Virus record (IMG/VR): IMGVR_UViG_3300026544_000001
Span: 60,677 to 124,676 of that record
DNA from: a virus
Strand: one strand, 5' to 3'
DNA: 64,000 nt
Shown here: piece by piece, positions 21,665-61,411 of the stretch
Position numbering within the stretch: position 1 is the stretch's first letter
Layout of the letters: every line of letters starts with the position of its first letter
The notes under the pieces: generated by a model
Database searches by the model: none
Told to the model about the DNA's origin: nothing
Seen by the model: the letters and a program-made list of their open reading frames with translations, nothing else
Position numbers and translations under genes: made by a program

Positions 21665-22513
21665 ATGGAATTCGCAGAAGACGAAAAAGGAATATGGTTA
21701 ATTCAGCCAAATGGACGAAGAAGAAGGGCAATCAAAACAAGTTGCAAACACTGCAATAAAGAATTCTTTACACCCAAGAGAACACAGATTGCTAAATTCT
21801 GTTCAAGAGAGTGTGTAATAAACTCAAAATCGCATAAACGAAGAATAACACAGTGTGTTAATTGTGGTAAAGATACTAAAAACGATAAATTTTGCAGTCA
21901 TAGTTGTAGTGCTGCTTTTAATAATAAAAGAAGAAAATTAAGTAAAGAGACGAAAGCTAAAATTAGTATTGCCGCAGTATCAAATATGAGTCATCTTAAT
22001 TTTATAGGAAATAAAAGTACCAAGCGTAGACCAAAGTATTGCAAATTGTATTTATGCAAATGTAAAAAATGTGGAAAAGATTTTCTATACAAAAGAAAAG
22101 ATAAAAAATGCTGTTCGGATAAATGCTACCATGAAACAGTAGGAGGGTATAGAGAAAACTCTGTAAGATCAAATGGTGCATATGTTACAGACTCGTTTGG
22201 TAATAATGTTTATCTGCAATCTTCCTATGAACTTGAATGTGCAAAAGTTCTTGATCGTAATAACATAAAATGGGTCAGGCCATCTTATTTAAAGTATAGA
22301 GATTCTTTAGGTAAAAATAGAAAGTATTATCCAGATTTTTACTTACCTAGTATAGATGTGTATCTTGATCCTAAAAATAAATTACTTATAGGTAGAGATA
22401 CTGAGAAAATACATTTAGCGTCTATTCAAAATAATGTAAAGATACTTATTCTTGGGAAAGATATAATATATAATGAAAAACTACTTTTAAAAACAGTATT
22501 AATCAAAACTTAA
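21665..22513 (+). CDS. Zinc-finger homing endonuclease, Vsr/EDxHD-like
   Basis: 282 residues. It carries several Cys pairs (CKHC...FCSREC, CVNC...FCSHSC, CKKC...CCSDKC) forming three zinc fingers, and a NUMOD3-like SKETKAKISIAAVSN between them. The C-terminal catalytic-like domain has SSYELECAKVLDRNNIKW and YYPDFYLPSIDVYLDPKN, as in Vsr-like PD-(D/E)xK homing enzymes. It stands alone after the tRNA cluster, behind AAAAGGTATATAAG. I see no intron around it, so it is probably a free-standing homing gene. Confidence 0.75.
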   Translation: MEFAEDEKGIWLIQPNGRRRRAIKTSCKHCNKEFFTPKRTQIAKFCSRECVINSKSHKRRITQCVNCGKDTKNDKFCSHSCSAAFNNKRRKLSKETKAKISIAAVSNMSHLNFIGNKSTKRRPKYCKLYLCKCKKCGKDFLYKRKDKKCCSDKCYHETVGGYRENSVRSNGAYVTDSFGNNVYLQSSYELECAKVLDRNNIKWVRPSYLKYRDSLGKNRKYYPDFYLPSIDVYLDPKNKLLIGRDTEKIHLASIQNNVKILILGKDIIYNEKLLLKTVLIKT

Positions 22514-22557
22514 AACTTATTGTTATATAATTATTAAAAATTTAAAAGGATAATTTA

Positions 22558-22692
22558 ATGGATGAAATAGCTGATGAATGTGCAGATATAATTGATAATG
22601 TGTTAGAACGTAAGGGTATAACACTATCACCTATGGAAATAGATGAAGTAAGAGATATAATACAAACTATATTAGAAGATGGTGGTTATTAA
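22558..22692 (+). CDS. Small acidic hypothetical protein
   Basis: 44 residues from ATG at 22558 behind AAAAGGATAATTTA to TAA at 22690. The sequence is acidic and helical (MDEIADECADIIDNVLE...). It ends two bases before the next ATG. No function recognised. Confidence 0.55.
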   Translation: MDEIADECADIIDNVLERKGITLSPMEIDEVRDIIQTILEDGGY

Positions 22693-22694
22693 TA

Positions 22695-22907
22695 ATGGAT
22701 CTTATGGGTAATATACTGATAATAGTATCTATGATAATTGTATTTATAGGTATAAGTAGTATGCTTATAAGAAGCACTAAACCTTGTCCTGAGTGTGGTG
22801 GTACAATGACTACAGTAGGTTACATAGGCGATAGAAACGGTCCAGCTGTAGATAACATACTTTGGGAATGTAAAGATTGTAACTATAATGAACAGGAGTT
22901 GGTGTGA
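22695..22907 (+). CDS. Membrane-anchored zinc-ribbon protein
   Basis: 70 residues: one transmembrane helix (about 6-26), then CPECGG and CKDCN about 30 residues apart, forming a probable zinc ribbon on the cytoplasmic side. Function unknown. Its TGA overlaps the GTG start of the next gene. Confidence 0.6.
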   Translation: MDLMGNILIIVSMIIVFIGISSMLIRSTKPCPECGGTMTTVGYIGDRNGPAVDNILWECKDCNYNEQELV

Positions 22908-23329
22908 AGGTACATAGTAGAAGAAACTCTAACAAACGTAATAAGAAGATGGAAAGTCAACGTAGATATAGAGGTAAAGACTTTGCTAAAAGAGATAAAC
23001 AAATAGCAGATAAGTTCTCTAGTATTAAAAGAGTTGAGTTATATAGTAAAGTATATAAAGAAGTTAATTTCAATGGAGAAACTACTTTTAGAGGTAGCGT
23101 AAAGACAGAACCAAAACCTATACTACTTACTGATGTAGTAGTAGATGGCACATACATTGAATATGTATGGGTTACTATAGGACAAGAAGATTGGGCGAAA
23201 TTAGCTATGTTACCAAAAGATAGAGACTCTTACAGAATATATCTAACTGGTGAAGTTCATAAGTATATGACAGATAAATGCTCTACTGAGAAGATAGGTA
23301 TAAGAAAAGCAAGGTTAATACATGAGTAA
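22904..23329 (+). CDS. Hypothetical basic protein
   Basis: 141 residues from GTG at 22904, overlapping the previous stop. The N-terminal 50 are strongly basic (HSRRNSNKRNKKMESQRRYR), compatible with nucleic-acid binding. The remainder is mixed alpha/beta. No family recognised. Confidence 0.55.
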   Translation: MKVHSRRNSNKRNKKMESQRRYRGKDFAKRDKQIADKFSSIKRVELYSKVYKEVNFNGETTFRGSVKTEPKPILLTDVVVDGTYIEYVWVTIGQEDWAKLAMLPKDRDSYRIYLTGEVHKYMTDKCSTEKIGIRKARLIHE

Positions 23330-23585
23330 TATAATTAAGTATAGTAAAGCTATTAGAGCTTATAGTAATGAGATAGGAACTCCTATTGTAGCTGATATGG
23401 ATATAGGCGAAATAGCTATGTACTGGTATGACAAGTACTGCGAGTTAAAAGAAGTAGAAATAAATAACTTTGCACAAGGTATGGAGTATATGGCTAGAGC
23501 TACTGCAGCTGAAAGTAAAGCTAATGCCTATGCAGAAGCACTGGAAAGTGTACTACTTGTTAGCAGACCTAAGAGGTTATCATGA
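23322..23585 (+). CDS. Hypothetical protein
   Basis: 87 residues, helical, Ala-rich C-terminal half (YMARATAAESKANAYAEALE). ATGA-type overlaps tie it to both neighbours, leading into the spanin pair. No function recognised. Confidence 0.55.
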   Translation: MSNIIKYSKAIRAYSNEIGTPIVADMDIGEIAMYWYDKYCELKEVEINNFAQGMEYMARATAAESKANAYAEALESVLLVSRPKRLS

Positions 23586-23836
23586 ATACAGTAATACTAT
23601 ACGGATTAGTTATTTCTATTATGAGTTTCTTATATATAGATGTACAAGCTAAGGATAAAGAGATAGCTGATCTTGAGAATAAACTAGTCAACCAGAAAGC
23701 TTATCTAGAAGATAAAGTTAAGAAAGTTGCATTTAATGTAAAGATGCTTACTAAGAAACAATCTATAGAGGAGAAGATTAACTATGACAAGAATAGCTCT
23801 AGTGTTAATATCAATAGCTTACGTATTTACTATTAG
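23582..23836 (+). CDS. Inner-membrane spanin (Rz-like)
   Basis: 84 residues with an N-terminal signal anchor (about 4-20: VILYGLVISIMSFLYI) followed by a periplasmic coiled coil (KDKEIADLENKLVNQKAYLE). That is the topology of an i-spanin. The lipoprotein gene at 23784 starts inside its 3' end in another frame, which is the classic Rz/Rz1 arrangement. The pair would bridge and fuse inner and outer membranes in the last step of lysis. Confidence 0.7.
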   Translation: MNTVILYGLVISIMSFLYIDVQAKDKEIADLENKLVNQKAYLEDKVKKVAFNVKMLTKKQSIEEKINYDKNSSSVNINSLRIYY

Positions 23837-24062
23837 TGGATGTGGTACTGAAGCAACTCCTGCAGTACGTCAAAGATTTGAAATGCAGAAAATAGATCTA
23901 CCAGAAGGTAGTGTGTATGTAGAAGTAGATAGTGTGGAAACTAGAACTAAATGTACACCAGTTGTGTTAGAAGTAAGTAAAGTACTTAGAGGGGTAATAG
24001 GTTTCTATGAGTATCAAGTAGATGAGTATAATAAGGCAGACAATAATGAAAGTCATAAATAA
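23784..24062 (+). CDS. Outer-membrane lipoprotein spanin (Rz1-like)
   Basis: 92 residues with a lipoprotein signal peptide (MTRIALVLISIAYVFTISGC) whose lipobox ISGC places the acylated Cys at residue 20. The mature part is a short periplasmic domain. It starts 53 bases inside the i-spanin gene. Presence of an o-spanin indicates a host with an outer membrane. Confidence 0.7.
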   Translation: MTRIALVLISIAYVFTISGCGTEATPAVRQRFEMQKIDLPEGSVYVEVDSVETRTKCTPVVLEVSKVLRGVIGFYEYQVDEYNKADNNESHK

Positions 24063-24624
24063 ACTTATTGAAGATAAGATGGATGAAGCAGATAAGTTAC
24101 ATCTACATAATGTTAATTGCATAGCTACGTTATTAGCTAGTATTATGATGTTAGATGATTATGATCTAATGGTAGTTAGTATAGCTGCAGGTATACATGA
24201 CATAGGTAAGATACAACTAGATCAGGATGTACTGAATGCAGAAAGAAGGCTTACCGAGGAAGAGTATAAACACGTTAAGCAACATAGTCATAATAGCTCA
24301 GAACTATTCATACGTAATGTATCAGATAGTATGGACACTAACCTAGTGATAGCTATATCAAAAGCAATAATGTATCATCATGAAAGAGAGTCAGGAGAAG
24401 GTTACCCTGGAGGACTCAAAGGGCGTGCTATACCTATTCATGCTAAAATAATAGCTGTAGCTGATGTGTACGATGCATTAAGTAGCAAAAGATGTTATAA
24501 GGATAGTTGGGATACTGAAGAAGTAGATAAACATTTCATTGAAAACAGTGGTAAACTGTATGATAGAGATGTAGTTAAAGCATTATTAGGATGCACATAC
24601 AATATAAGGAAGTTATACAAATGA
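24046..24624 (+). CDS. Stand-alone HD-GYP cyclic-dinucleotide phosphodiesterase
   Basis: 192 residues from ATG at 24046, which has AAGG nine bases upstream; ATG at 24022 lies deep in the previous gene. H21 and HDIGK (H51-D52) are present, as are H80, the HHE (111-113) and ESGEGYPGGLKGRAIP carrying the GYP signature. AKIIAVADVYDALSSKRCYK supplies D140. Every conserved HD-GYP position I know is present, so it should hydrolyse c-di-GMP or a related cyclic dinucleotide in the cytoplasm. No receiver or sensor domain is fused. It sits between spanins and a holin candidate, so it is probably expressed with lysis genes. Confidence 0.85.
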   Translation: MKVINKLIEDKMDEADKLHLHNVNCIATLLASIMMLDDYDLMVVSIAAGIHDIGKIQLDQDVLNAERRLTEEEYKHVKQHSHNSSELFIRNVSDSMDTNLVIAISKAIMYHHERESGEGYPGGLKGRAIPIHAKIIAVADVYDALSSKRCYKDSWDTEEVDKHFIENSGKLYDRDVVKALLGCTYNIRKLYK

Positions 24625-24827
24625 AAAAGCAAGATATAAAATTAACTGTAAGATACATAGTACTAGGTTTCATAATGTACCTAGCGTATAGAGTAACTAG
24701 TGCTGAGTATATAATTAGTTTAAAAGATGTAAACTCAACTACATTACAAGTAGTAGTAGGTGCAATCTTCGGAGCGCTTACAATGATTACTGGCAAGCAT
24801 TTTTCTGAATCTATAGATAAAGATTAA
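24621..24827 (+). CDS. Small two-helix membrane protein, holin candidate
   Basis: 68 residues from ATG at 24621; AGGAAG lies upstream and the start overlaps the HD-GYP stop (ATGA). Two transmembrane helices (about 10-26 and 42-58, VVVGAIFGALTMITG) with a short loop and charged ends fit a class II holin. It lies between the spanins and the endolysin. Confidence 0.5.
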   Translation: MKKQDIKLTVRYIVLGFIMYLAYRVTSAEYIISLKDVNSTTLQVVVGAIFGALTMITGKHFSESIDKD

Positions 24828-24854
24828 TATTAGTTCATACTTAGAAGGATAAAA

Positions 24855-25190
24855 ATGATTTTACATGAAGATATTTTAAATAATAAGTCACCAGGGAATG
24901 GTAAAATAATAAGTACTTTTAAAAAGTTACCTGACAGGATTAAATCTATACATGGTGATAAGCGTATTAGAGAGGTAGCTAGAAAAGCTGGACTAAAGTA
25001 TAAAATACATTATATGATTAAAACAAAAAATGCTATGGGTATTGAGAAGAAGCTTCTTACTTTTGGTAAGCCAGTAGATGCAGGTAATATAGACGGAAAA
25101 ACAGAATTCAGAGAAATAGACGATAAGTTATTCGGAAGCTTTAGTTGGGTGTTAAAAGAACACTTCAACACAACAATAGATAAGGATTAG
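24855..25190 (+). CDS. Hypothetical protein, weakly GIY-YIG/T5orf172-like
   Basis: 111 residues. KLPDRIKSIHGDKRIREVAR and GIEKKLLTFGKPVDAGNIDG, then KTEFREI, resemble the later part of T5orf172-type nuclease domains (E-K-x-L-L, G-x-T-E-F), but the catalytic N-terminal strands are not recognisable. It could be a diverged nuclease fragment or something unrelated. It starts behind AGAAGGATAAAA and ends just before the endolysin. Confidence 0.45.
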   Translation: MILHEDILNNKSPGNGKIISTFKKLPDRIKSIHGDKRIREVARKAGLKYKIHYMIKTKNAMGIEKKLLTFGKPVDAGNIDGKTEFREIDDKLFGSFSWVLKEHFNTTIDKD

Positions 25191-25192
25191 AT

Positions 25193-25588
25193 ATGGGTTA
25201 TAGATTTGGTAAGACTAGCTTAAGTAGGCTGGTAGGAGTAGATAATAAATTAGTTGAAGTTGCAAAGACAGCTATTAACATAAGTAAACAAGACTTTACA
25301 ATAGTAGAAGGATTACGTACACCTGAGAGACAGCTAGAGTTGTATGAAAAAGGTATGAGTGAGTTAGATGGTTATAAAAATATAAGCTCACATCAATTGG
25401 GAGAAGCTATAGATATAGCTCCATATAAAGATGGTAAACTACTATGGTCGTTAACTAACAGTAGAGAATGGTTAGAAATAGGTAGAGCAATGCTAAGGGC
25501 AGCTAGATTGCATGATGTTGATATAGAATGGGGAATAGGTTATAACATAGGTACTGGTTATGATGCTCCACATTTTCAACTAAAATAA
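25193..25588 (+). CDS. Endolysin, M15-family peptidase
   Basis: 131 residues. VEGLRTPERQLELYEKG, SSHQLGEAIDIAP (H67, D74) and DAPHFQL (H127) are the zinc ligands and substrate-contact motifs of VanY/CwlK-type M15 peptidases, common as phage endolysins. It should cleave peptidoglycan peptide stems. There is no signal peptide, so export would need a holin. It follows the holin candidate closely. Confidence 0.85.
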   Translation: MGYRFGKTSLSRLVGVDNKLVEVAKTAINISKQDFTIVEGLRTPERQLELYEKGMSELDGYKNISSHQLGEAIDIAPYKDGKLLWSLTNSREWLEIGRAMLRAARLHDVDIEWGIGYNIGTGYDAPHFQLK

Positions 25589-25607
25589 TAAGTCTAAAGT
25601 ATGTAAG

Positions 25608-25635
25608 CTGAATGTAATATAAATTAGCCTATAAT
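25608..25635 (+). promoter_or_regulatory. Candidate promoter for the signalling operon
   Basis: TATAAT at 25630-25635 lies in the 86-base gap before 25675. CTGAAT at 25608-25613 is a weak -35 with a 16-base spacer. It is the only visible promoter between the endolysin and the two-component genes. Confidence 0.4.
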
Positions 25636-25674
25636 GATTTATAAAATAACGAATATTTAACACAGGTAGATATA

Positions 25675-25929
25675 ATGGATAAAAGAATTGCTAAATTAGA
25701 GTCTGAATTACAACAGCTGCAAATAACAATGAAGATGATGGATGGTACCTTAGAGATACTTAATGGTACACTATCTCGTTTTAATGAATCAGTAAATCAT
25801 ATAAATGAAATAGAAAATATACTATATAAGAAAGAACAAAGAAGAACCATAATATGTGCAAGTGCTATAATACTTAGCGTAGGTTCTATTGCTGGTATAT
25901 TAACTGCAATTACAATGTTTAAAGGGTAG
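25675..25929 (+). CDS. Coiled-coil tail-anchored membrane protein (XhlA-like)
   Basis: 84 residues: coiled coil (about 1-50, KLESELQQLQITMKMMDGTL), a basic patch KKEQRR, then one C-terminal membrane helix (about 58-80). This resembles XhlA-type proteins that work with holins, but may equally be a scaffold for the signalling proteins downstream. It is the first gene after the candidate promoter. Confidence 0.5.
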   Translation: MDKRIAKLESELQQLQITMKMMDGTLEILNGTLSRFNESVNHINEIENILYKKEQRRTIICASAIILSVGSIAGILTAITMFKG

Positions 25930-25933
25930 TAAG

Positions 25934-26404
25934 ATGAGTAAGTATACTGAAATAGAAACTAAAATAAATAAGATGTCAAAAGACTTTAAAGATCAAATAC
26001 GTGCACTTACAGTTGTCGGTCAGAGTGAAATAAGTGATTTTGCAATAGACATAAAAACAGATGAGAATAAAGATGTAGTTAGATTCGTTATCCATGCAAA
26101 TGATGTACTTAATACAAAACAAATACATATAACAAACGCTATAGTAGATATACTTGAAGAGATGCTAAATATTAAAAAAGAAGTTGTTGCAGGTTTAGAT
26201 GAAATAGAAAACAGAAGAATAACGCCTAAGAAAGTTGTATCTAAAGGATGGGGTATAATAGAAAAAATAACGGGGTTAAAAACCATACTAGCTTTGATTG
26301 TTATACTTGGTATACTTGGTATATTTATTACTATGCCAGATCAGACAATAGAGTTATTTAGAAGTGGCGGTTTAAAAGAATTATTAAAAGGTATATTAAG
26401 ATGA
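25934..26404 (+). CDS. Membrane protein with cytoplasmic helical domain
   Basis: 156 residues: helical N-terminal domain of about 115 residues, one strongly hydrophobic helix (about 118-135, ILALIVILGILGIFI) and a short basic C-terminus. It overlaps the response-regulator start by ATGA. Its position between a coiled-coil membrane protein and the two-component genes suggests a partner in that system or a lysis regulator. No family recognised. Confidence 0.55.
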   Translation: MSKYTEIETKINKMSKDFKDQIRALTVVGQSEISDFAIDIKTDENKDVVRFVIHANDVLNTKQIHITNAIVDILEEMLNIKKEVVAGLDEIENRRITPKKVVSKGWGIIEKITGLKTILALIVILGILGIFITMPDQTIELFRSGGLKELLKGILR

Positions 26405-27063
26405 GTATGTTTAATTTTATAAAAAAGTTATTTAACAAAGAGGAATCTGAAAGTATAATAGAGTACAACCTTGAGGAAGAAACATTGGAACCTGATGACA
26501 AGCCTTTGATATGTGCAGATTGTAATCTGCAGAAGATAGGTAATTGTAATCCGTGTATAATGGATAATATAGCATTTGTTAATAGTTACCATGCTAATAG
26601 AAAAACTCTAATAATTGTAGATGATAACAGAGGTTCAGCATCATTTCTAGCAGATGACCTGTATAGAGAGATAGGTGAGGATATTAACATCATAACATTT
26701 ACTAGTGAGTATGCAGGTTTTATATTGGAAGAGATGTTAGATAAGACTGGTATAGGTGTAGACTATGCTATACTAGATATAACCCTAGGTGGAATAAGAA
26801 GACTAGGTGGAAAGAATGTTGTATACGATGGAGTAGATATATATAAAATACTAATGGAAAAGAATAGTGAAACAGAGTATCTATTCTATACAAGTAATAA
26901 TATGAATAAACAGTTGAAAACTATCAATGCTTTAATAGTAAAGTATAATAAAACTAATAGAGGTAATGATATAGAAAATAAGATAATCTATAAAGCTAGT
27001 AAATTTTCAAAACAAGATATAGAGAGCATCATTAGTAAATTAAATATTAAAAGGAGCAGATAA
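26401..27063 (+). CDS. Receiver-domain response regulator with Cys-rich N-terminus
   Basis: 220 residues. From about 68 on it is a receiver domain: LIIVDDN (D74-D75), AILDITLGG (phospho-acceptor D126), LFYTSNN (T164) and IIYKASK (K198) at the canonical places. There is no output domain after it. Before it, C38-x2-C41 and C49-x2-C52 could bind zinc or an iron-sulphur cluster. It may signal by protein contact, as single-domain regulators do. It overlaps the sensor gene by TAATG, indicating coupled translation. Confidence 0.8.
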   Translation: MSMFNFIKKLFNKEESESIIEYNLEEETLEPDDKPLICADCNLQKIGNCNPCIMDNIAFVNSYHANRKTLIIVDDNRGSASFLADDLYREIGEDINIITFTSEYAGFILEEMLDKTGIGVDYAILDITLGGIRRLGGKNVVYDGVDIYKILMEKNSETEYLFYTSNNMNKQLKTINALIVKYNKTNRGNDIENKIIYKASKFSKQDIESIISKLNIKRSR

Positions 27064-27674
27064 TGCCAGGTAGTTTAAAAACAACGTTACTTTCACTTCT
27101 TGTTATCTTTATAATCTTTGTTGGGTACGTAACAGGTAAAATGGTAGTAGAGAATATAGCTAGTAGTCAGAATATACTAAATCTTAACAGTGTATCTAAA
27201 TGTGCTAAGAAACTAACAAGATGTGATATTAGTAATGTTGACGAAAAGCAAATAGTTGAAGTTATGAATATATGTGCAAAGAATGTTAGATCAATTGGTC
27301 AAACTGGAGATATGTTTGTTATACGTAAAAGTGATGCTAAAATAGTATGGGATGCTTCTCAAGATTGTAGTGTATCTGATAGTAATAAAGCTTTCCTTAC
27401 CAAAGAAGGTGTGTGTAAGTTATTTACAAAACCAGATACGTGTAAACAAGCATCTTATATAATGAGAAATGAACCTCCTAGAGGGACATTAAAGTGGACA
27501 TTTGATGATAGTGAAGAAATAGTTAATTATCTATACCTAGCTTGTTCTATAGATAATGATCATTACATACTTGGTTGTGGTGCACAAACAGATGAGATAA
27601 TAACTACACTTAGGGTATTTATTATACCTGTACTTTCTCTTCTAGTAATCTTACTTATCGTTATATCAGTATAG
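27063..27674 (+). CDS. Membrane sensor with Cache-like, Cys-rich periplasmic domain
   Basis: 203 residues: membrane helix about 9-25, periplasmic domain about 27-182, second membrane helix about 184-203 ending the protein. GQTGDMFVIRKSDAKIVWDA resembles the core strands of single Cache domains, which bind small ligands outside the membrane. The domain has eight cysteines (47, 54, 71, 102, 118, 127, 161, 172), suggesting disulphides or redox/metal sensing. It has no kinase domain of its own. The kinase follows in the same frame after one TAG and 12 bases. Confidence 0.65.
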   Translation: MPGSLKTTLLSLLVIFIIFVGYVTGKMVVENIASSQNILNLNSVSKCAKKLTRCDISNVDEKQIVEVMNICAKNVRSIGQTGDMFVIRKSDAKIVWDASQDCSVSDSNKAFLTKEGVCKLFTKPDTCKQASYIMRNEPPRGTLKWTFDDSEEIVNYLYLACSIDNDHYILGCGAQTDEIITTLRVFIIPVLSLLVILLIVISV

Positions 27675-27686
27675 AGTTCATTAGAT

Positions 27687-28871
27687 ATGTTAATACATAA
27701 GATAATAATAATTATAGCATTCACAATTGTTATGACGCTTGTGGAGCAAGTAGTTAATAACATGTATAAACTACTTAATTCACAGAAGTACTACTATTTA
27801 CAATACAATAAAGGTAAAGAGATAACTAGGAGAGAGTGTGTAAAACTATTTAACTGTAAATATGTTATTAAGATAGATAGCTATAAATTTGTAAAAAAGA
27901 CTTTTGATAAAGGTTATGTTATATCTAAAGAAGAGGTTATTCCTACATGGAAAGCAATACTTGATAATAAAGTATACATAGATCTAAATACAATGATGGT
28001 TGGTGTTAGAGCTGGTAAGGATAGAATAATTTTTAAAAACATATTTATCATTACAGGTAATAATATAAGAACAATTATGGTTAGTAGCCCTATATATGTG
28101 TTGTTTATACTCTATATGGTTATTGTACTTAATGATGGAAAAAGAAAACATGATATAATTAAAAATAGAATGAATGAGTACAGTGTTGAGTTAAGAGGTA
28201 TTATAATGTTTAGTGAAAATCTTAATCATGAAGTTAACAATGCATTAAGTGTAATAAATAATAAAGCTCGACTTGCATTGGAAAAAGTTAATAGAACATG
28301 TATGGGTAAAGAGATAATAAACAATGATTTTGAATATATATTTGATGCATGTGATCAGATAGAAACTATAACAAAGAAGTTACAAGGTATAAAACACTTT
28401 AAGCATAATAGCGATCATAGAACATTATATGAGGTTATACAAAAATCATTTGATTTCGCTACACTAGGTTCACCTAATGTAAAAACTACTATAGATGAAA
28501 AACTACTTAGTTATGAAGCTAAAGGTATTAGTAATATTGACCTTCATGGTAGATTACTAAACCATATAAAGAATAGTATAGAGGCTAAAGCTAGTGAAAT
28601 AAAAATAGTACTAGGTAAACTAAAAGGGGATACTATCGGGTTATATATTATAGATAATGGTAATGGTGTACCTGCAGAAGTTAGGAATACTTTATTTGAT
28701 GAAAATGTAAGTAGTAAGAAAGATAAAAACTATGTAGGTGGTAATGGTATGTATATTAACAAACACATAATGAAAGCCTATGGAGGGGATATACGTCTTG
28801 TTAGTAGTATACCTGGTAAAACCGTATTTGAATTATCATTTAAATACAGAAAGATATCAAGCAAAAATTAA
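27687..28871 (+). CDS. Membrane sensor histidine kinase
   Basis: 394 residues. Membrane helices at about 5-22 and 130-148 enclose a roughly 105-residue extracytoplasmic domain. The dimerisation/phosphoacceptor helix has NLNHEVNNALSVI (H181, with E182). The ATPase domain has LLNHIKNSIEAKA (N box), IIDNGNGVP (G1, D323) and VGGNGMYINKHIMKAYGG (G2). All boxes needed for activity are present. The ribosome site is weak and the start lies 12 bases after the sensor stop, so expression may depend on reinitiation. The natural partner is the receiver protein at 26401. Confidence 0.88.
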   Translation: MLIHKIIIIIAFTIVMTLVEQVVNNMYKLLNSQKYYYLQYNKGKEITRRECVKLFNCKYVIKIDSYKFVKKTFDKGYVISKEEVIPTWKAILDNKVYIDLNTMMVGVRAGKDRIIFKNIFIITGNNIRTIMVSSPIYVLFILYMVIVLNDGKRKHDIIKNRMNEYSVELRGIIMFSENLNHEVNNALSVINNKARLALEKVNRTCMGKEIINNDFEYIFDACDQIETITKKLQGIKHFKHNSDHRTLYEVIQKSFDFATLGSPNVKTTIDEKLLSYEAKGISNIDLHGRLLNHIKNSIEAKASEIKIVLGKLKGDTIGLYIIDNGNGVPAEVRNTLFDENVSSKKDKNYVGGNGMYINKHIMKAYGGDIRLVSSIPGKTVFELSFKYRKISSKN

Positions 28872-28918
28872 GAAGGATTAGTATATAATTACATATAATT
28901 TATAAAAGGAGAACAACC

Positions 28919-29374
28919 TTGACTCAACAACAAGCAGAAGAACTATTTGAATCTATAGGTAAATCAGTAGATGAAAGATTAAAAAAAGATAGGTTAACTG
29001 TACTTATAGGGCAAGAGAAGTTCTATAAACTTAAGTTAGAGACTATAGGTAAAGAAACTGATGAGTTAGTTGAATACTTTCTAAAAAAATCAAATATTAC
29101 AACTAATAAGAAAAGATCTCCTTGGTTAAACAAGGTATTAACTAAACTAGGTATGGTCCCTATATTAGTAGCACTAAGTATAACTAGTGTATCATACAGC
29201 AGTACTGTGGTGGTTAATGAAGATGTTATGATAGACTTAGCATTTGAGCCTAAACAATCTTTAACTTGTAAACTACTACATGAAGGTTGTGGTACAGATT
29301 TATACAAAAAACTTTGGGGTACAGATAAAGGTAACTTGAAGAATAACTATGGTATACTTTCTACAATAAGTTAA
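28919..29374 (+). CDS. Single-span membrane protein
   Basis: 151 residues from TTG at 28919, chosen because AAAAGGAG lies eight bases upstream. A charged helical cytoplasmic half (1-75) is followed by a hydrophobic helix (about 79-97) and an extracytoplasmic tail with two cysteines (CKLLHEGC). It is the last gene of the signalling block. Function unknown. Confidence 0.6.
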   Translation: MTQQQAEELFESIGKSVDERLKKDRLTVLIGQEKFYKLKLETIGKETDELVEYFLKKSNITTNKKRSPWLNKVLTKLGMVPILVALSITSVSYSSTVVVNEDVMIDLAFEPKQSLTCKLLHEGCGTDLYKKLWGTDKGNLKNNYGILSTIS

Positions 29375-29383
29375 GGAGTTGCC

Positions 29384-30037
29384 GTGAATATCAAAATATG
29401 TACAAAATGTAAACAAGAATTGACATTTGATAAATTTGCAAAAGCAAAGAAAGGTAAATTCGGTATAGAGGCTGTATGTAAAGAATGCAAAAAAATGTAT
29501 ACTAGAAGTGTAGATGGGTTAGTTAGAGAATTATTTAATCAACAGAAAAAATCTAGTAAACATAGAAATCAAGTAGGTACTGTAGAATATACACTTGAGG
29601 AATTACAATCTTGGTGCAAAGGTCAAAAAGAATTCAAGAATCTATATGATAATTGGGTAAAGTCTGACTATAACACTAAGTTGAGACCGTCGATAGATAG
29701 GCTTGATGACTATAAAGGTTATTCATTTGATAATATTCAACTGATGACATGGATAGAAAACAAGCAAAAGGGCCACGACTCTCGTAAAAATGGCAGCAAT
29801 AATAAAGATAGTAAGGCTGTGGTTCAACTAGATATGGATGGTAACTTTATTGCAGAGTTCTACTCTCAAAAAGAAGCTATGCGTCAAACTGGTATAAACC
29901 ATGCTAGAATATCTAAAGTATGTAGAGGCGATTGTACAACCAACCCTGTTGGTAAACAATATAAAAGCTTAAGTACAGGTGGTTTTAAGTGGATGTTCAA
30001 AACAGAATATGATAGCTTAAACCCTAATAATTTATAA
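29384..30037 (+). CDS. Homing endonuclease, HNH-type with NUMOD1
   Basis: 217 residues from GTG behind AAGGAG. N-terminal zinc finger CTKC...CKEC; central LRPSIDRLDDYKGYSFDNIQ, typical of phage HNH homing enzymes; then a C-terminal NUMOD1 repeat (VVQLDMDGNFIAEFYSQKEA and ISKVCRG). No intron splice structure is visible around it, so it appears free-standing, inserted between the signalling and adhesin regions. Confidence 0.78.
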   Translation: MNIKICTKCKQELTFDKFAKAKKGKFGIEAVCKECKKMYTRSVDGLVRELFNQQKKSSKHRNQVGTVEYTLEELQSWCKGQKEFKNLYDNWVKSDYNTKLRPSIDRLDDYKGYSFDNIQLMTWIENKQKGHDSRKNGSNNKDSKAVVQLDMDGNFIAEFYSQKEAMRQTGINHARISKVCRGDCTTNPVGKQYKSLSTGGFKWMFKTEYDSLNPNNL

Positions 30038-30056
30038 AACAAGAAAAGGATTTAAC

Positions 30057-31715
30057 ATGGCTGATAACGTGACTTCGGATGATTTAGAAAAGGCATTGAG
30101 TGATTTAGCAGAGTCTATGGGGCTTTCTGTAAAAGAATACGTAGAAGGTGGTTTCTTAGACCTAACAACATATAATGAGGCTCAATCAGCAGTAATTGCA
30201 AGATTAGATGCAATTGATGTAATTGATGCAGAAGATGATGTTGAAACAATAGCAGAGAAGCTTATTGCAATTAATAAAGTACTAAGTGATGATGATGGAG
30301 TATTACAAAATATTCTAAATATGATTAATGATAATCAATCACAAATCGTTACTGAGTCAGATAGAGCAAAAGGTGTTGAAGCTGGATTAAGAACAGATGT
30401 TGATAATGCTACTTCAAAAGGTAATGCTAATGAATCTGCAATCAATGATATCAAATCTGGTATAAGTGATTACAAAACTACTACTGAAGATAGATTCACA
30501 GCAGTAGAAGGTAGAGTTACAGATGATGAAGCTGCTATAGCTACATTAACTGCAGATGTTGATACAGAAGGTTCTGTAGCATACTCAGTTGAACAAGAAG
30601 CTATCAGAGCTAAATCAGTAAGTGGTAAACTTGCAGACTTATCTACAGATGATAAAGATTCATTAGTTGGTGCAATCAATGAAGTTCAAGCTGAAACAAT
30701 AACTGCTCAAGCTGGTGTTGATGGTTTAGTAACTAGAATGGGTTCTGCTGAAGAAGCAATCAATACAATTAATGGTGACGTAGATACTGATGGTTCTATG
30801 GCTAAAGCTATTAAAGTTGCTGATGATGCTGTAAGAGCTGACATTGCTGCTGATATTGAATCTACAAGAAGTGGATTACAAGATGGTATAGATGCTAACA
30901 CAGGTGCAATCGCTGTATTAAATGGTGATGACGAAACAGAAGGTTCTGTTGCAAAAGCTATCAAAGATGCTACTGGTGGAGATATCAGTGATTTAAGTGA
31001 TAGAATGGATGCTACTGAAGCTGCTACATCTACAAATAAATCATCTATTGATTTACTAAATGCTGATGATCAAACTGAAGGTTCAGTTGACTACAAAATA
31101 GCACAAGCTGCTGGTGAGTCAAATGAAGTTACTGATGCACTATCTGATAGAATCACAGTAAACGAAGGTGATTTAGCTACACTTAAAGGTGATGCTGAGA
31201 CTGAAGGTTCAGTTGCTAAACAAGTTGCTGATGCTAAAGCTGCTACTGATGCTGTAGTTGCTGATAACAAAGCTGCTATAGAGTCTACTGTATCTGATTT
31301 AGATGATAGAGTTGTTGCTAATAAAACTGCTGCTGCAGATGCACTAGCTGCTGCTAAAACTGAGTTAAGTGATTCAATCGCTGCTGAAGTAACTAGAGCT
31401 ACAGACGCTGAAGTTGCATTAGGTGATAGAGTTAAAGTTAATGAAGATATCTTAAATGATACAACAGATGAAGATGATAACCTAGTTAAAGGTATCGTTA
31501 CTAGAACATCTGATTTAGAGTCTGCATTAAGTGCACAAGCTCAAAAACAAATTGATGATCTTCAAGCTGCAATTGATGATTTAAAAGCTTACTCTGATTC
31601 AAATGATTTAAAAGCTGCTTCAATGGATATTTGTGGTGTTCACAATAAATTCAGAGGTGCTCTTGGATTAGGTGATAAAGACTGTGGTGGTGACGGAGAC
31701 GGTGAGGCTGTATAG
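30057..31715 (+). CDS. Repetitive coiled-coil virion fibre
   Basis: 552 residues, acidic, Ala/Asp-rich. A unit of about 50 residues repeats with the core L..D..TEGSVA..I (five clear copies between about 165 and 390), separated by coiled-coil stretches such as AAKTELSDSIAAEVTRATDA. The C-terminus ends in a small Cys-containing domain (DICGVHNKF...GDKDCGG). Codon use is more uniform than in neighbours, and two strong hairpins follow directly, as expected of an abundant virion protein. It is probably a head or tail fibre. Confidence 0.65.
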   Translation: MADNVTSDDLEKALSDLAESMGLSVKEYVEGGFLDLTTYNEAQSAVIARLDAIDVIDAEDDVETIAEKLIAINKVLSDDDGVLQNILNMINDNQSQIVTESDRAKGVEAGLRTDVDNATSKGNANESAINDIKSGISDYKTTTEDRFTAVEGRVTDDEAAIATLTADVDTEGSVAYSVEQEAIRAKSVSGKLADLSTDDKDSLVGAINEVQAETITAQAGVDGLVTRMGSAEEAINTINGDVDTDGSMAKAIKVADDAVRADIAADIESTRSGLQDGIDANTGAIAVLNGDDETEGSVAKAIKDATGGDISDLSDRMDATEAATSTNKSSIDLLNADDQTEGSVDYKIAQAAGESNEVTDALSDRITVNEGDLATLKGDAETEGSVAKQVADAKAATDAVVADNKAAIESTVSDLDDRVVANKTAAADALAAAKTELSDSIAAEVTRATDAEVALGDRVKVNEDILNDTTDEDDNLVKGIVTRTSDLESALSAQAQKQIDDLQAAIDDLKAYSDSNDLKAASMDICGVHNKFRGALGLGDKDCGGDGDGEAV

Positions 31716-31728
31716 TCTGACTGTTGAT

Positions 31729-31754
31729 AATAGACTTGGGAAACCTTGTCTATT
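31729..31754 (+). terminator. Hairpin with GNRA loop after fibre gene
   Basis: AATAGAC / GTCTATT forms a 7-bp outer stem. Two T-T mismatches and GG/CC then close a GAAA tetraloop. It is 13 bases after the stop of the 30057 gene and just before a second hairpin. Confidence 0.6.
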
Positions 31755-31755
31755 A

Positions 31756-31792
31756 CCCACTATAGAGATACTATAGGTATTTGTATAGTGGG
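31756..31792 (+). terminator. Long hairpin following fibre gene
   Basis: CCCACTATA / TATAGTGGG forms a 9-bp stem whose loop contains a further ATAC/GTAT stem. TTAAAACC follows. Together with the GNRA hairpin next to it, this makes a tandem terminator or RNA-stability element between 30057 and 31826. Confidence 0.6.
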
Positions 31793-31825
31793 TTAAAACC
31801 TATTATATAACTAAAAGGATAAATA

Positions 31826-32866
31826 ATGAAAAAAGTAAAAAAAGCATTTAATGTAGAATATGATTTAACAAGTCAAGAGTTTAAAGAAACAAAGATGGAC
31901 ATGGTATCAGAAAAATGTCAAACAATGCATGGTGATAGTGTACTATGTAAAGTTATGACTTATTGTGTTCCAGATCATCAACTAGTTATTCATACTACTG
32001 CTGAGAATCAAGAGTTTATGGGTGCTCCAAGTATGGAACTAGCTATGAGACCATTAGCTGAACAATCGTTCTTAACAATGGACGATGATATGGTTAAAAC
32101 ATATGAGATCACAATTACAGCTAATACAGATCTACCTGATTATGTTACAGCACTGAACATAGCCCAAGCTAAAGCTGATAAAATGTTCGAAGAAGATGAT
32201 ACTAAAATACCTCTTGTTACTGTTATTGATTATAGATGGGGTAATTCTCCAGCTACAATAGGTGCTAGTATATTTACAAGTACAGATGAAGACGGTAATA
32301 GTATAAGTTTAATAGGTGCTACAGATAGTGCTGCAGTAGTTCATGTAGGTGATGCTGAAGCTGGTGCAAAGGCTGCTGCGTGTACATTATACTGTGAAAA
32401 ATGGGAAGATGGTGTTGACGATGTATTCGTAAAAGATTATAGTGACTCGTTTGCTTATGGGTATAGAGTGGAATGCGACCTAGAAGTAACTAGTGATGAT
32501 AAAAGTGGTTATATCTTTGGTGTGTACTACGCAGGAAAAGAGAGTTATGAAACAAATGGTATAACTTTATATATAGATGATGGAAAATTAACTCTTGATG
32601 CTGAAAAAGGTTCAGGGGATACTGTTCTTGTACATACTGATTTAGCTTTAGTAAAAGAGTCTACTCATTTAGTATATGATGCATACGTTACTTCAGATGG
32701 TAAGAAAAACGTATACATTAAATACGGAGATGAAGAAGTAACTTTAGAAGATACTGGTTGGGATACTGGTTGTAGCAGATTCTACATACCTATGAATGAC
32801 AACTGGTTAGAGGGTATGGTACTATCAGACTTCCAAATGACACAACATACAGAAGCACAAGAATAA
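31826..32866 (+). CDS. Virion adhesin, paralogue A (conserved N-terminus, LamG-like tail)
   Basis: 346 residues. Residues 1-185 are closely similar to the protein at 36443 (FNVEYDLTS, MVKTYEITIT, FEEDDTKIPL, VIDYRWGN, GDAEAGAKA). The two genes share a 41-bp identical DNA stretch (32171-32211 and 36785-36825). Residues about 190-346 are a beta-sandwich with concanavalin-like features (YGYRVECDLEVTSDDKSGYI, FYIPMNDNWLEGMVLSDFQ). The N-terminus probably attaches to the virion and the C-terminus binds a ligand. The function of the N-terminal domain is unknown. Confidence 0.65.
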   Translation: MKKVKKAFNVEYDLTSQEFKETKMDMVSEKCQTMHGDSVLCKVMTYCVPDHQLVIHTTAENQEFMGAPSMELAMRPLAEQSFLTMDDDMVKTYEITITANTDLPDYVTALNIAQAKADKMFEEDDTKIPLVTVIDYRWGNSPATIGASIFTSTDEDGNSISLIGATDSAAVVHVGDAEAGAKAAACTLYCEKWEDGVDDVFVKDYSDSFAYGYRVECDLEVTSDDKSGYIFGVYYAGKESYETNGITLYIDDGKLTLDAEKGSGDTVLVHTDLALVKESTHLVYDAYVTSDGKKNVYIKYGDEEVTLEDTGWDTGCSRFYIPMNDNWLEGMVLSDFQMTQHTEAQE

Positions 32867-60550: not shown

Positions 60551-61411
60551 ATGACTGGAGGAACAAATAATTCATTAGCTACATATTCTGTAGATGAGGA
60601 TACTTTTGATCTATATGATGAAGTATTTAAGTTTAAAGATAGTTTATCCTCTATTGAATTTGGTGGATTACTAGATTGTTATAAAGTGTTTTTTGCAGTT
60701 GAAGATACAGAGAAAAATAGAAAAGAGCTAGATAGGATATTCACTGGAGATGGCATATCATGGAAAGATAAATTTAACTTACTAGAAGGTGAGCATAAGA
60801 CTTCAGATGGTACTACAATAGTTAATAAGTATTACATAAAGTATGAATACGGTAAAAAACTTAATAGTGCTCAAGCTAAGTTTTTAGCGTCTAATTTAGA
60901 TGTGTACTCTGACAGTCATTCTACTTCCTGTTGGAAACGTACATTAGAACAAATTGCTGTTATGGCTATTGCAGTGTATACTGGAAATCCTTGGGTAATG
61001 GCTTCTGCATTTATAAGCTCAGCTTATTACTTTTCTGGCAGACCTATGCCTAAAGATCTCGCTATAGCTTTAGCAGTTATTACGTTAGGTGAAGGAGTAG
61101 CAAACTCAGGTTGGACAGTAGCAAATGTAGCCAGTGTTGCAAACTTAGGCATTGGTTATGTTAATAATCAAAAAAGTATTCAAGAGCTGCAAAAAATACA
61201 TGAAGTACAGAGAAAAACAAAAGAAAATAGAGAATCCTATTATGAGGCTAAAGAATTTGAAAGTCATTTAAGATATATATATGAAGATAGCTTTAATACC
61301 TGTTGGAGAGGTAACTTAGAAAAGAGCCCATATTACGATATACAGATGTTATATTCAGACTACGCATCATACCCTTGGGTTACTACTAATATATGGGATC
61401 AGGATGAATAA
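60551..61411 (+). CDS. Virion protein with hydrophobic central region
   Basis: 286 residues. Residues about 135-200 are hydrophobic and Gly/Ala-rich (IAVMAIAVYTGNPWVMASAF, LAIALAVITLGEGVANSGW), flanked by charged helical ends. This is the make-up of podovirus internal proteins that insert into the host membrane on DNA entry. Inferred from composition and position only. Confidence 0.55.
   Translation: MTGGTNNSLATYSVDEDTFDLYDEVFKFKDSLSSIEFGGLLDCYKVFFAVEDTEKNRKELDRIFTGDGISWKDKFNLLEGEHKTSDGTTIVNKYYIKYEYGKKLNSAQAKFLASNLDVYSDSHSTSCWKRTLEQIAVMAIAVYTGNPWVMASAFISSAYYFSGRPMPKDLAIALAVITLGEGVANSGWTVANVASVANLGIGYVNNQKSIQELQKIHEVQRKTKENRESYYEAKEFESHLRYIYEDSFNTCWRGNLEKSPYYDIQMLYSDYASYPWVTTNIWDQDE

Follow-up and report, generated by a model that had tools for sequence, protein, structure and literature searches.

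The 64,000-nucleotide (nt) stretch of viral DNA analysed here (positions 60,677 to 124,676 of IMG/VR record IMGVR_UViG_3300026544_000001; hereafter the window) belongs to a 124.7-kb phage record, and among its late genes lies a compact cassette encoding a tail-anchored-type membrane protein (TA), a lone receiver (REC) and a membrane histidine kinase (HK). We consider it probable that this cassette is a phage-specific, envelope-sensing two-component system with a membrane output, in which the kinase signals through the receiver to TA. An earlier note, made from the letters of the window and its open reading frames (ORFs), had described a receiver, a two-helix sensor and a membrane kinase at 26401–28871 as a complete two-component system carried by a phage. 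All three ORFs are present as it had described them, and the kinase has now been found in 23 virus contigs, in 21 of which the receiver lies beside it. Functionally, this is a two-component system; what is new is that it appears specific to phages and probably has a membrane output, the effector step being putative.

All coordinates refer to the window unless another contig label is named, and the genes of the cassette all lie on its plus strand. The first, TA (25934–26404, 156 aa), was recognised by hydropathy and by its profile homologs; it has a helical N-terminal part, one transmembrane (TM) helix at residues 117–135 and a 21-residue tail (hydropathy), and its structural model is all-helical and of low confidence (mean predicted local distance difference test score, pLDDT, 65.6). 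The TA stop codon ends at 26404 and the ATG of the receiver gene (26401–27063, 220 aa) is at 26401, the two overlapping as ATGA. The receiver gene in turn overlaps as TAATG, at 27063, with that of a 203-aa sensor-like protein (27063–27674), recognised by hydropathy and by its homolog in contig L073, whose two TM helices (residues 5–23 and 185–203) enclose a cysteine-rich extracytoplasmic part. A gap of 12 nt then leads to the gene of the 394-aa kinase (27687–28871), in which two TM helices (residues 1–19 and 130–148, again by hydropathy) flank about 110 residues. The genes are tightly packed, with the coupled starts that the earlier note had seen. A scan of 22500–32000 gave fewer promoter-like sites than shuffled sequences and no plus-strand terminator, and hence no transcript boundary can be claimed.

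The kinase matches Pfam HATPase_c above the curated cut-off (E=9.5e-12), the single such match in the window's record, and the profile of its family matches solved histidine kinases. Its phospho-histidine H181 (codon 28227–28229), the N296 of its N box (28572–28574), its G1 box (D323 to G327, 28653–28667) and its G2 box (G352 to G354, 28740–28748) are all in place. Across the family, H181, E182, K236, N296, S297, A300 and D323 are invariant in 23/23 kinases, and G325, G327, G352 and G354 are found in 22/23, the gaps belonging to L072 (G1) and to L070, whose kinase ends at the contig edge (G2). The two-helix sensor has no Pfam match over cut-off and no match among solved structures.

By itself, the window receiver falls below the Pfam cut-off for Response_reg (E=0.054; 14.1 bits, the cut-off being 30.2), so the receiver call of the earlier note had rested on motifs. 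That identity is borne out by the predicted structure and by the relatives. The AlphaFold model has block-mean pLDDT values of 77–95 from residue 61 onward; the 50 Foldseek rows shown for it are receivers or response regulators, except for an apo-YsxC entry at rank 18; and VIA-align 2 aligns 118 of its residues with 3h5i (Z 13.0, root-mean-square deviation 2.3 A), the lower rows being mostly receivers as well (Z 11–12). When a profile of the receivers of ten relatives was compared with the sequences of solved structures, its ten best matches were Spo0F, CheY and other receivers, at borderline significance (best E=0.0073). What we take to be the canonical receiver catalytic residues are all there: the acidic pair D74 D75 (codons 26620–26625), the phospho-acceptor D126 (26776–26778), the switch residue T164 (26890–26892) and K198 (26992–26994). 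D74, D75, D126, G144, F162 and K198 are invariant in 21/21 receivers, and position 164 is T in 20 and S in one (L070); with D126 and H181 thus constant throughout, the earlier note had numbered both correctly. It had also held that the receiver lacks an output domain, which agrees with a modelled fold that extends to about residue 217 of 220. Four receivers scanned against Pfam have no further domain over cut-off, and hence none of them has the C-terminal DNA-binding output domain of a DNA-binding response regulator.

A search for homologous cassettes in related phages, which the earlier note had proposed, found 22 further contigs in IMG/VR (labels in L or G denote contigs or records). A kinase search of viral contigs turned up a single relative, L001, in which the genes again run TA-REC-HK. 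Alignments of the receiver core and of the ATPase core, and then the two kinase motifs KxIKYSNGN and ENxHHELNTP, raised the family to 23 contigs including the window's; the window receiver alone, or two-row alignments, found as queries nothing beyond L001's contig. One of the motif searches yielded 36 stretches, only eight of which were family members by profile, and the other 28 were dropped. All 15 viral stretches that carry the DNA pattern for ENxHHELNTP are family members (12 from new contigs), and this motif can serve as a sequence signature for finding the cassette. Each of the 22 further records has one family kinase, the match in L015/G007 being reported as two pieces in one frame. In every receiver-bearing contig (21/21) the kinase lies downstream of the receiver on the same strand, directly in 19 and after the sensor gene in the other two, and TA, REC and HK share one strand in all 19 contigs where the three were detected by profile, the gap between TA and receiver running from -118 to 16 nt (the -118 reflecting start-codon choice).

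Identity to the window proteins, measured on 10 receivers and 11 kinases, is 20–32%. The family has the features by which a two-component system is recognised: the H, N, G1 and G2 boxes of the kinase; the DD, D, T/S and K of the receiver, with a predicted (beta-alpha)5 fold; and the two genes together in 21/23 contigs. As far as conserved residues can tell, HK and REC very probably form a working phosphotransfer pair. Their trees, each of 20 contigs, have clades in common (L005/L006/L054/L055/L069/L071/L076; L001/L051; L072–L075/L077/L078/L080), and co-inheritance is the natural reading of these shared clades; support for many of the deep forks is low, and the window forms a long branch that carries no starred support. 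Directly after the kinase of L054, two extra CheY-like receivers are encoded (L054:8852–9656, minus strand; Pfam E=2.1e-9 and 8.8e-5), perhaps as parts of a longer relay.

Beyond these contigs little was found. None of 50,697 phage records held a close relative, and searches of known-phage DNA and proteins gave weak generic kinase matches or nothing. Plasmids held no match for the L054 receiver and phage records none for the barrel-like gene of L071. A scan of bacterial genomes with two peptide patterns only gave one weak candidate, L046 (a 5.2-kb contig of a metagenome-assembled genome), which failed the family profiles. It is these homology results that bear on the rarity in lytic phages which the earlier note had supposed for such pairs.

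The near-constant neighbour of the receiver is a membrane protein. A TA family protein lies directly upstream of it in 19/23 contigs, the window's included, by a profile built from ten members (nine of the 19 detections being by homology to those), and architecture adds one more in L074. The TA-type proteins are 101–217 residues long with a single C-terminal TM helix; with the hydrophobic segment sought after residue 40, the strongest one lies near the C-terminus in 20/20, with 12–31 residues after it and mostly positive charge before it. The receivers themselves have distinctive N-termini. That of the window begins with a short amphipathic, Phe-rich stretch (residues 4–11 helical in the model, at low pLDDT), and, compared with 373 other ORFs of the same loci, receiver N-termini have a higher mean hydrophobic moment (0.61 vs 0.44, p=1.2e-6) and more F+W residues (2.4 vs 0.95, p=1.7e-8), although these p-values treat related sequences as independent and three start sites were trimmed. 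Taken together, the conserved TA, the receiver N-termini and the missing output domain point to an output at the inner membrane, and we lean, if only slightly, towards TA as the protein through which it would pass. Among the candidate targets that the earlier note had put forward for contact with the receiver, the membrane protein at 25934 is TA, and its conservation backs the proposal. The other membrane protein that it had named, at 25675–25929 (plus strand), has 84 aa, a helical N-terminal region and, by hydropathy, a TM helix at residues 58–76 towards the C-terminus; no homolog of it was detected among the relatives, and its membership of the cassette is putative.

The signal that enters the system appears to be read by more than one kind of module. 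Of the 23 contigs, 12 encode a small secreted protein in which G-W-x-R is invariant (seven detected by homology to profile members, the rest being in the profile), mostly followed by a barrel-like gene (eight aligned and one more, in L072, split). The window and L073, both without the secreted protein, encode homologous two-helix sensors (34% identity, E=3e-38), in each case placed after the receiver and before the kinase. The barrel profile matches one solved protein, a '50 kDa outer membrane protein' (E=1.4e-5), and DUF3373 is matched by 2/8 barrel members. Of the 22 kinases whose N-terminus is complete, 17 have a C-x4-C motif in the extracytoplasmic part, where the window kinase has C-x5-C, and extra cysteine clusters stand in several cytoplasmic loops; a metal or redox role was considered for these clusters, which are not universal. 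In L001 and L051 the kinase is all but devoid of an extracytoplasmic domain. It looks as though the input can be exchanged while the TA-REC-HK core stays constant.

These observations suggest a pathway in four steps. The extracytoplasmic domain of the kinase would read an envelope signal with the help of an accessory input module, which is the sensor at 27063 in the window and the secreted protein, often with the barrel-like gene, in relatives. The kinase, to judge from its intact catalytic residues, would autophosphorylate on H181 and then transfer the phosphoryl group to D126 on the single-domain receiver. That protein, whose amphipathic N-terminus probably keeps it at the inner membrane, would then contact TA and not DNA. 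In the last and weakest step, the output would adjust a process at the membrane during infection, the likeliest candidates being the timing of lysis and the reaction to a superinfecting phage. A more elaborate version is trans-envelope signalling, in which the barrel and the secreted protein (or the two-helix sensor) report an external event, for instance a superinfecting phage or a periplasmic redox change, to the kinase, and the receiver, through phosphorylation and without transcription, switches TA and so sets lysis timing or the superinfection response; we regard this version as speculative and rather unlikely in its full form.

Several facts weigh against a membrane-output system of this kind. 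TA has neither a known homolog nor a confident fold: there was no match over the Pfam cut-off for the TA of the window or of L001, no informative PHROG match for that of the window, and none below E=0.04 among solved structures. When the amphipathicity measures are applied jointly, only 7/21 receivers qualify (3/373 controls); the first 20 residues of the window receiver have a net charge of 0, and the N-terminus of the L009 receiver is not clearly amphipathic. The window kinase departs from the family in its H box, which reads HEVNN where the consensus is HELNTP, with A186 in the place of a P carried by 22/23 kinases. Nor is the cassette complete everywhere. L080 has no TA, and of the two contigs without a receiver, L079 has its kinase cut by the contig end, whereas L052 has a kinase with no detected REC or TA, and only the secreted protein and the barrel beside it. 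Finally, the L072 kinase (L072:9438–10646, minus strand) lacks the G1 segment. In that contig the barrel gene, downstream of the G1-less kinase, is split in two (L072:8030–9163, minus strand), and this copy may be decaying, mis-assembled or the result of a sequencing error.

Other explanations have to be set against the same evidence. The phage kinase and lone receiver might feed or drain the two-component or chemotaxis pathways of the host, as phosphate donor or sink, with TA as a mere anchor. The receiver is indeed a lone CheY/Spo0F-like domain, and phage proteins that act on host two-component systems exist, PIT4 being one of them (PMC10714779). A cognate receiver is, however, kept beside the kinase in 21/23 contigs and TA in 19/23, and the REC and HK trees have common clades, as would be expected of a self-contained relay; we judge such rewiring of the host unlikely. 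Somewhat less plausible still is that the phosphorylated receiver binds phage or host RNA polymerase and thereby controls phage transcription. This idea draws on L001 and L051, where the gene of a phage multisubunit RNA polymerase is no more than 7 kb away, but an Rpb1_2 match occurs in only 5/23 contigs and not at all in the window's record, the scanned receivers have no DNA-binding output domain, and the constant partner is a membrane protein. The polymerase gene of L001 (L001:2768–7129, plus strand) is a single long ORF with beta-type (Rpb2) and beta-prime-type (Rpb1) domains; its counterpart in L051 (L051:11772–16085, minus strand) has the Rpb1_2 match.

Two further explanations can be dealt with briefly. 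The cRec domains of jumbo phages have two aspartates and are linked to NAD and ADP-ribose (ADPr) enzymes, and the receiver might be such a cyclic-phosphate enzyme placed beside the kinase by accident; yet the papers on them state that cRec never occurs with histidine kinases (PMC7824862, PMC9503650), whereas in the present family the receiver gene is followed by the kinase gene at once in 19 of the 21 cases and after the sensor in the other two, and D126, T/S164 and K198 are all kept, which makes a cRec very improbable. That the cassette came from a host and is carried along without selection, or that the assembly is chimeric, is hardly credible: some copies may decay, as the G1-less kinase and the split barrel gene of L072 indicate, but catalytic residues that are invariant across 23 divergent contigs largely refute this.

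The setting of the window's cassette argues in the same direction. Phage genes flank it on either side on the same strand, and the last 126 bases of the record recur near its start as a 126-bp exact direct repeat (133/136 identical), the pattern of a genome that is closed or terminally redundant, although the record has no completeness value; with these two facts, the host contig joined in assembly that the earlier note had entertained finds no support.

We return to the membrane-output system and to its possible connection with lysis, which the earlier note had raised. In the window, the cassette follows an M15 endolysin (25193–25588, plus strand; phrog_465 E=4.1e-37, Pfam Peptidase_M15_4 E=1.2e-6) and a spanin-like gene pair, both members of which were called by architecture only and have no PHROG match: an i-spanin-like protein with an N-terminal TM helix and then a charged part, whose gene overlaps the next (23582–23836, plus strand), and an o-spanin-like lipoprotein with the lipobox ISGC (23784–24062, plus strand). 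A GH108 endolysin and a holin adjoin the cassette in L001 and L051, an M15 endolysin is close by in L006 and L054, and L053 has spanin genes with an M15 endolysin 7.5 kb off. An endolysin-like gene was found in 11/23 contigs (leaving out one match inside a 1310-aa frame of G007), and it lies within 4 kb of the kinase in five of the 11 and within 8 kb in a sixth. Under uniform placement, the five within 4 kb give P=0.0007, which becomes P=0.026 once the related G000, G001 and G006 are merged. In the remaining five (G002, G005, G013, G015 and G018) the endolysin is 19 to 107 kb from the kinase, and the other 12 contigs have no endolysin-like match; profile searches with Phage_lysozyme and Amidase_2 found nothing in the 23 contigs. 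The link to lysis thus survives only in part: with lysis genes close in some lineages and far away in others, lysis control can reasonably be proposed for some lineages but does not characterise the family, and we hold control of lysis or superinfection by the cassette to be a tentative, rather doubtful proposition.

Several neighbouring genes deserve mention. Between the spanin-like pair and the endolysin, an HD-GYP-type protein is encoded (24022–24624, plus strand; Pfam HD_5 E=3.7e-24), in which the HD and GYP motifs can be recognised by eye, as in cyclic-di-GMP phosphodiesterases; no homolog of it occurs at the loci of the relatives. The kinase is followed by a 151-aa ORF (28919–29374, plus strand) with a central hydrophobic stretch and no homolog among the relatives, possibly a shorter secreted protein if an internal start is used. 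A 552-aa coiled-coil-like protein (30057–31715, plus strand) is matched by homologs that come shortly after the cassette in L001 and L051, so synteny in that lineage extends beyond the kinase. Outside the window, the same record (G000) has a 158-aa ORF (C1:47684–48160, minus strand) that resembles a lysozyme by eye and starts with a hydrophobic segment near its N-terminus; Pfam Phage_lysozyme has no match in the record. Spanin-like pairs and barrel genes only suggest that the hosts have an outer membrane.

How does this cassette compare with known systems? Bacterial lone-receiver systems (CheY or Spo0F with their kinases) resemble it in the H, N, G1 and G2 boxes and in a (beta-alpha)5 receiver that has DD, D, T/S and K and no output domain. 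They differ from it in that the present system is phage-borne, its receiver falls below the Pfam cut-off and has a probable membrane-binding N-terminus, a tail-anchored partner gene is near-constant, and the kinase has the motifs KxIKYSNGN and ENxHHELNTP. The sensor kinase AgrC provides a phage-borne precedent. Clostridioides phage phiCDHM1 carries the agr genes AgrD, AgrB and AgrC, and thus likewise encodes a sensor kinase; unlike the cassette, this is a quorum-sensing locus of a temperate phage that has no AgrA regulator and, in the available part of the source, no mention of a tail-anchored partner (PMC7790227). In Alteromonas phage V22, CDS-30 is listed as an auxiliary gene, a histidine kinase/response regulator (CheY-like), and a V22 protein matches our receiver fold in BFVD (A0A6C0R1B8, E=5.3e-4); it is alike in this fold and differs as one gene, with no cassette described in the part of the paper at hand (PMC7289586). 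The histidine kinases of pelagiphages are alike in adjoining envelope genes, those of curli (type VIII secretion system, T8SS), and differ in being tied to curli export, the accessible text mentioning neither a partner receiver nor a tail-anchored protein (PMC9599517). As far as these sources go, none of these known phage kinases is half of a kinase–receiver pair with a tail-anchored partner, and a search of open-access literature brought up no paper that describes the cassette.

In the lysis inhibition of T4 (RI antiholin, T holin), an envelope signal received during infection shifts the timing of lysis; to our knowledge, no phosphorelay takes part in it. We draw a works-like analogy to the cassette only, and claim no homology. 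Because the catalytic residues are kept in the relatives, nearly always beside a TA gene, our results suggest that these phages monitor the cell envelope while they infect, and that their response runs through a membrane protein and not through DNA. Phage sensor kinases were already known; a fixed, catalytically intact kinase–receiver cassette across divergent phages would imply that real-time sensing of the envelope is part of the infection programme. If this is true, a receiver whose target is a membrane protein and not DNA would enable a quick response late in infection, and would offer a testable way into the question of how phages that lack known lysis-inhibition genes might time lysis.

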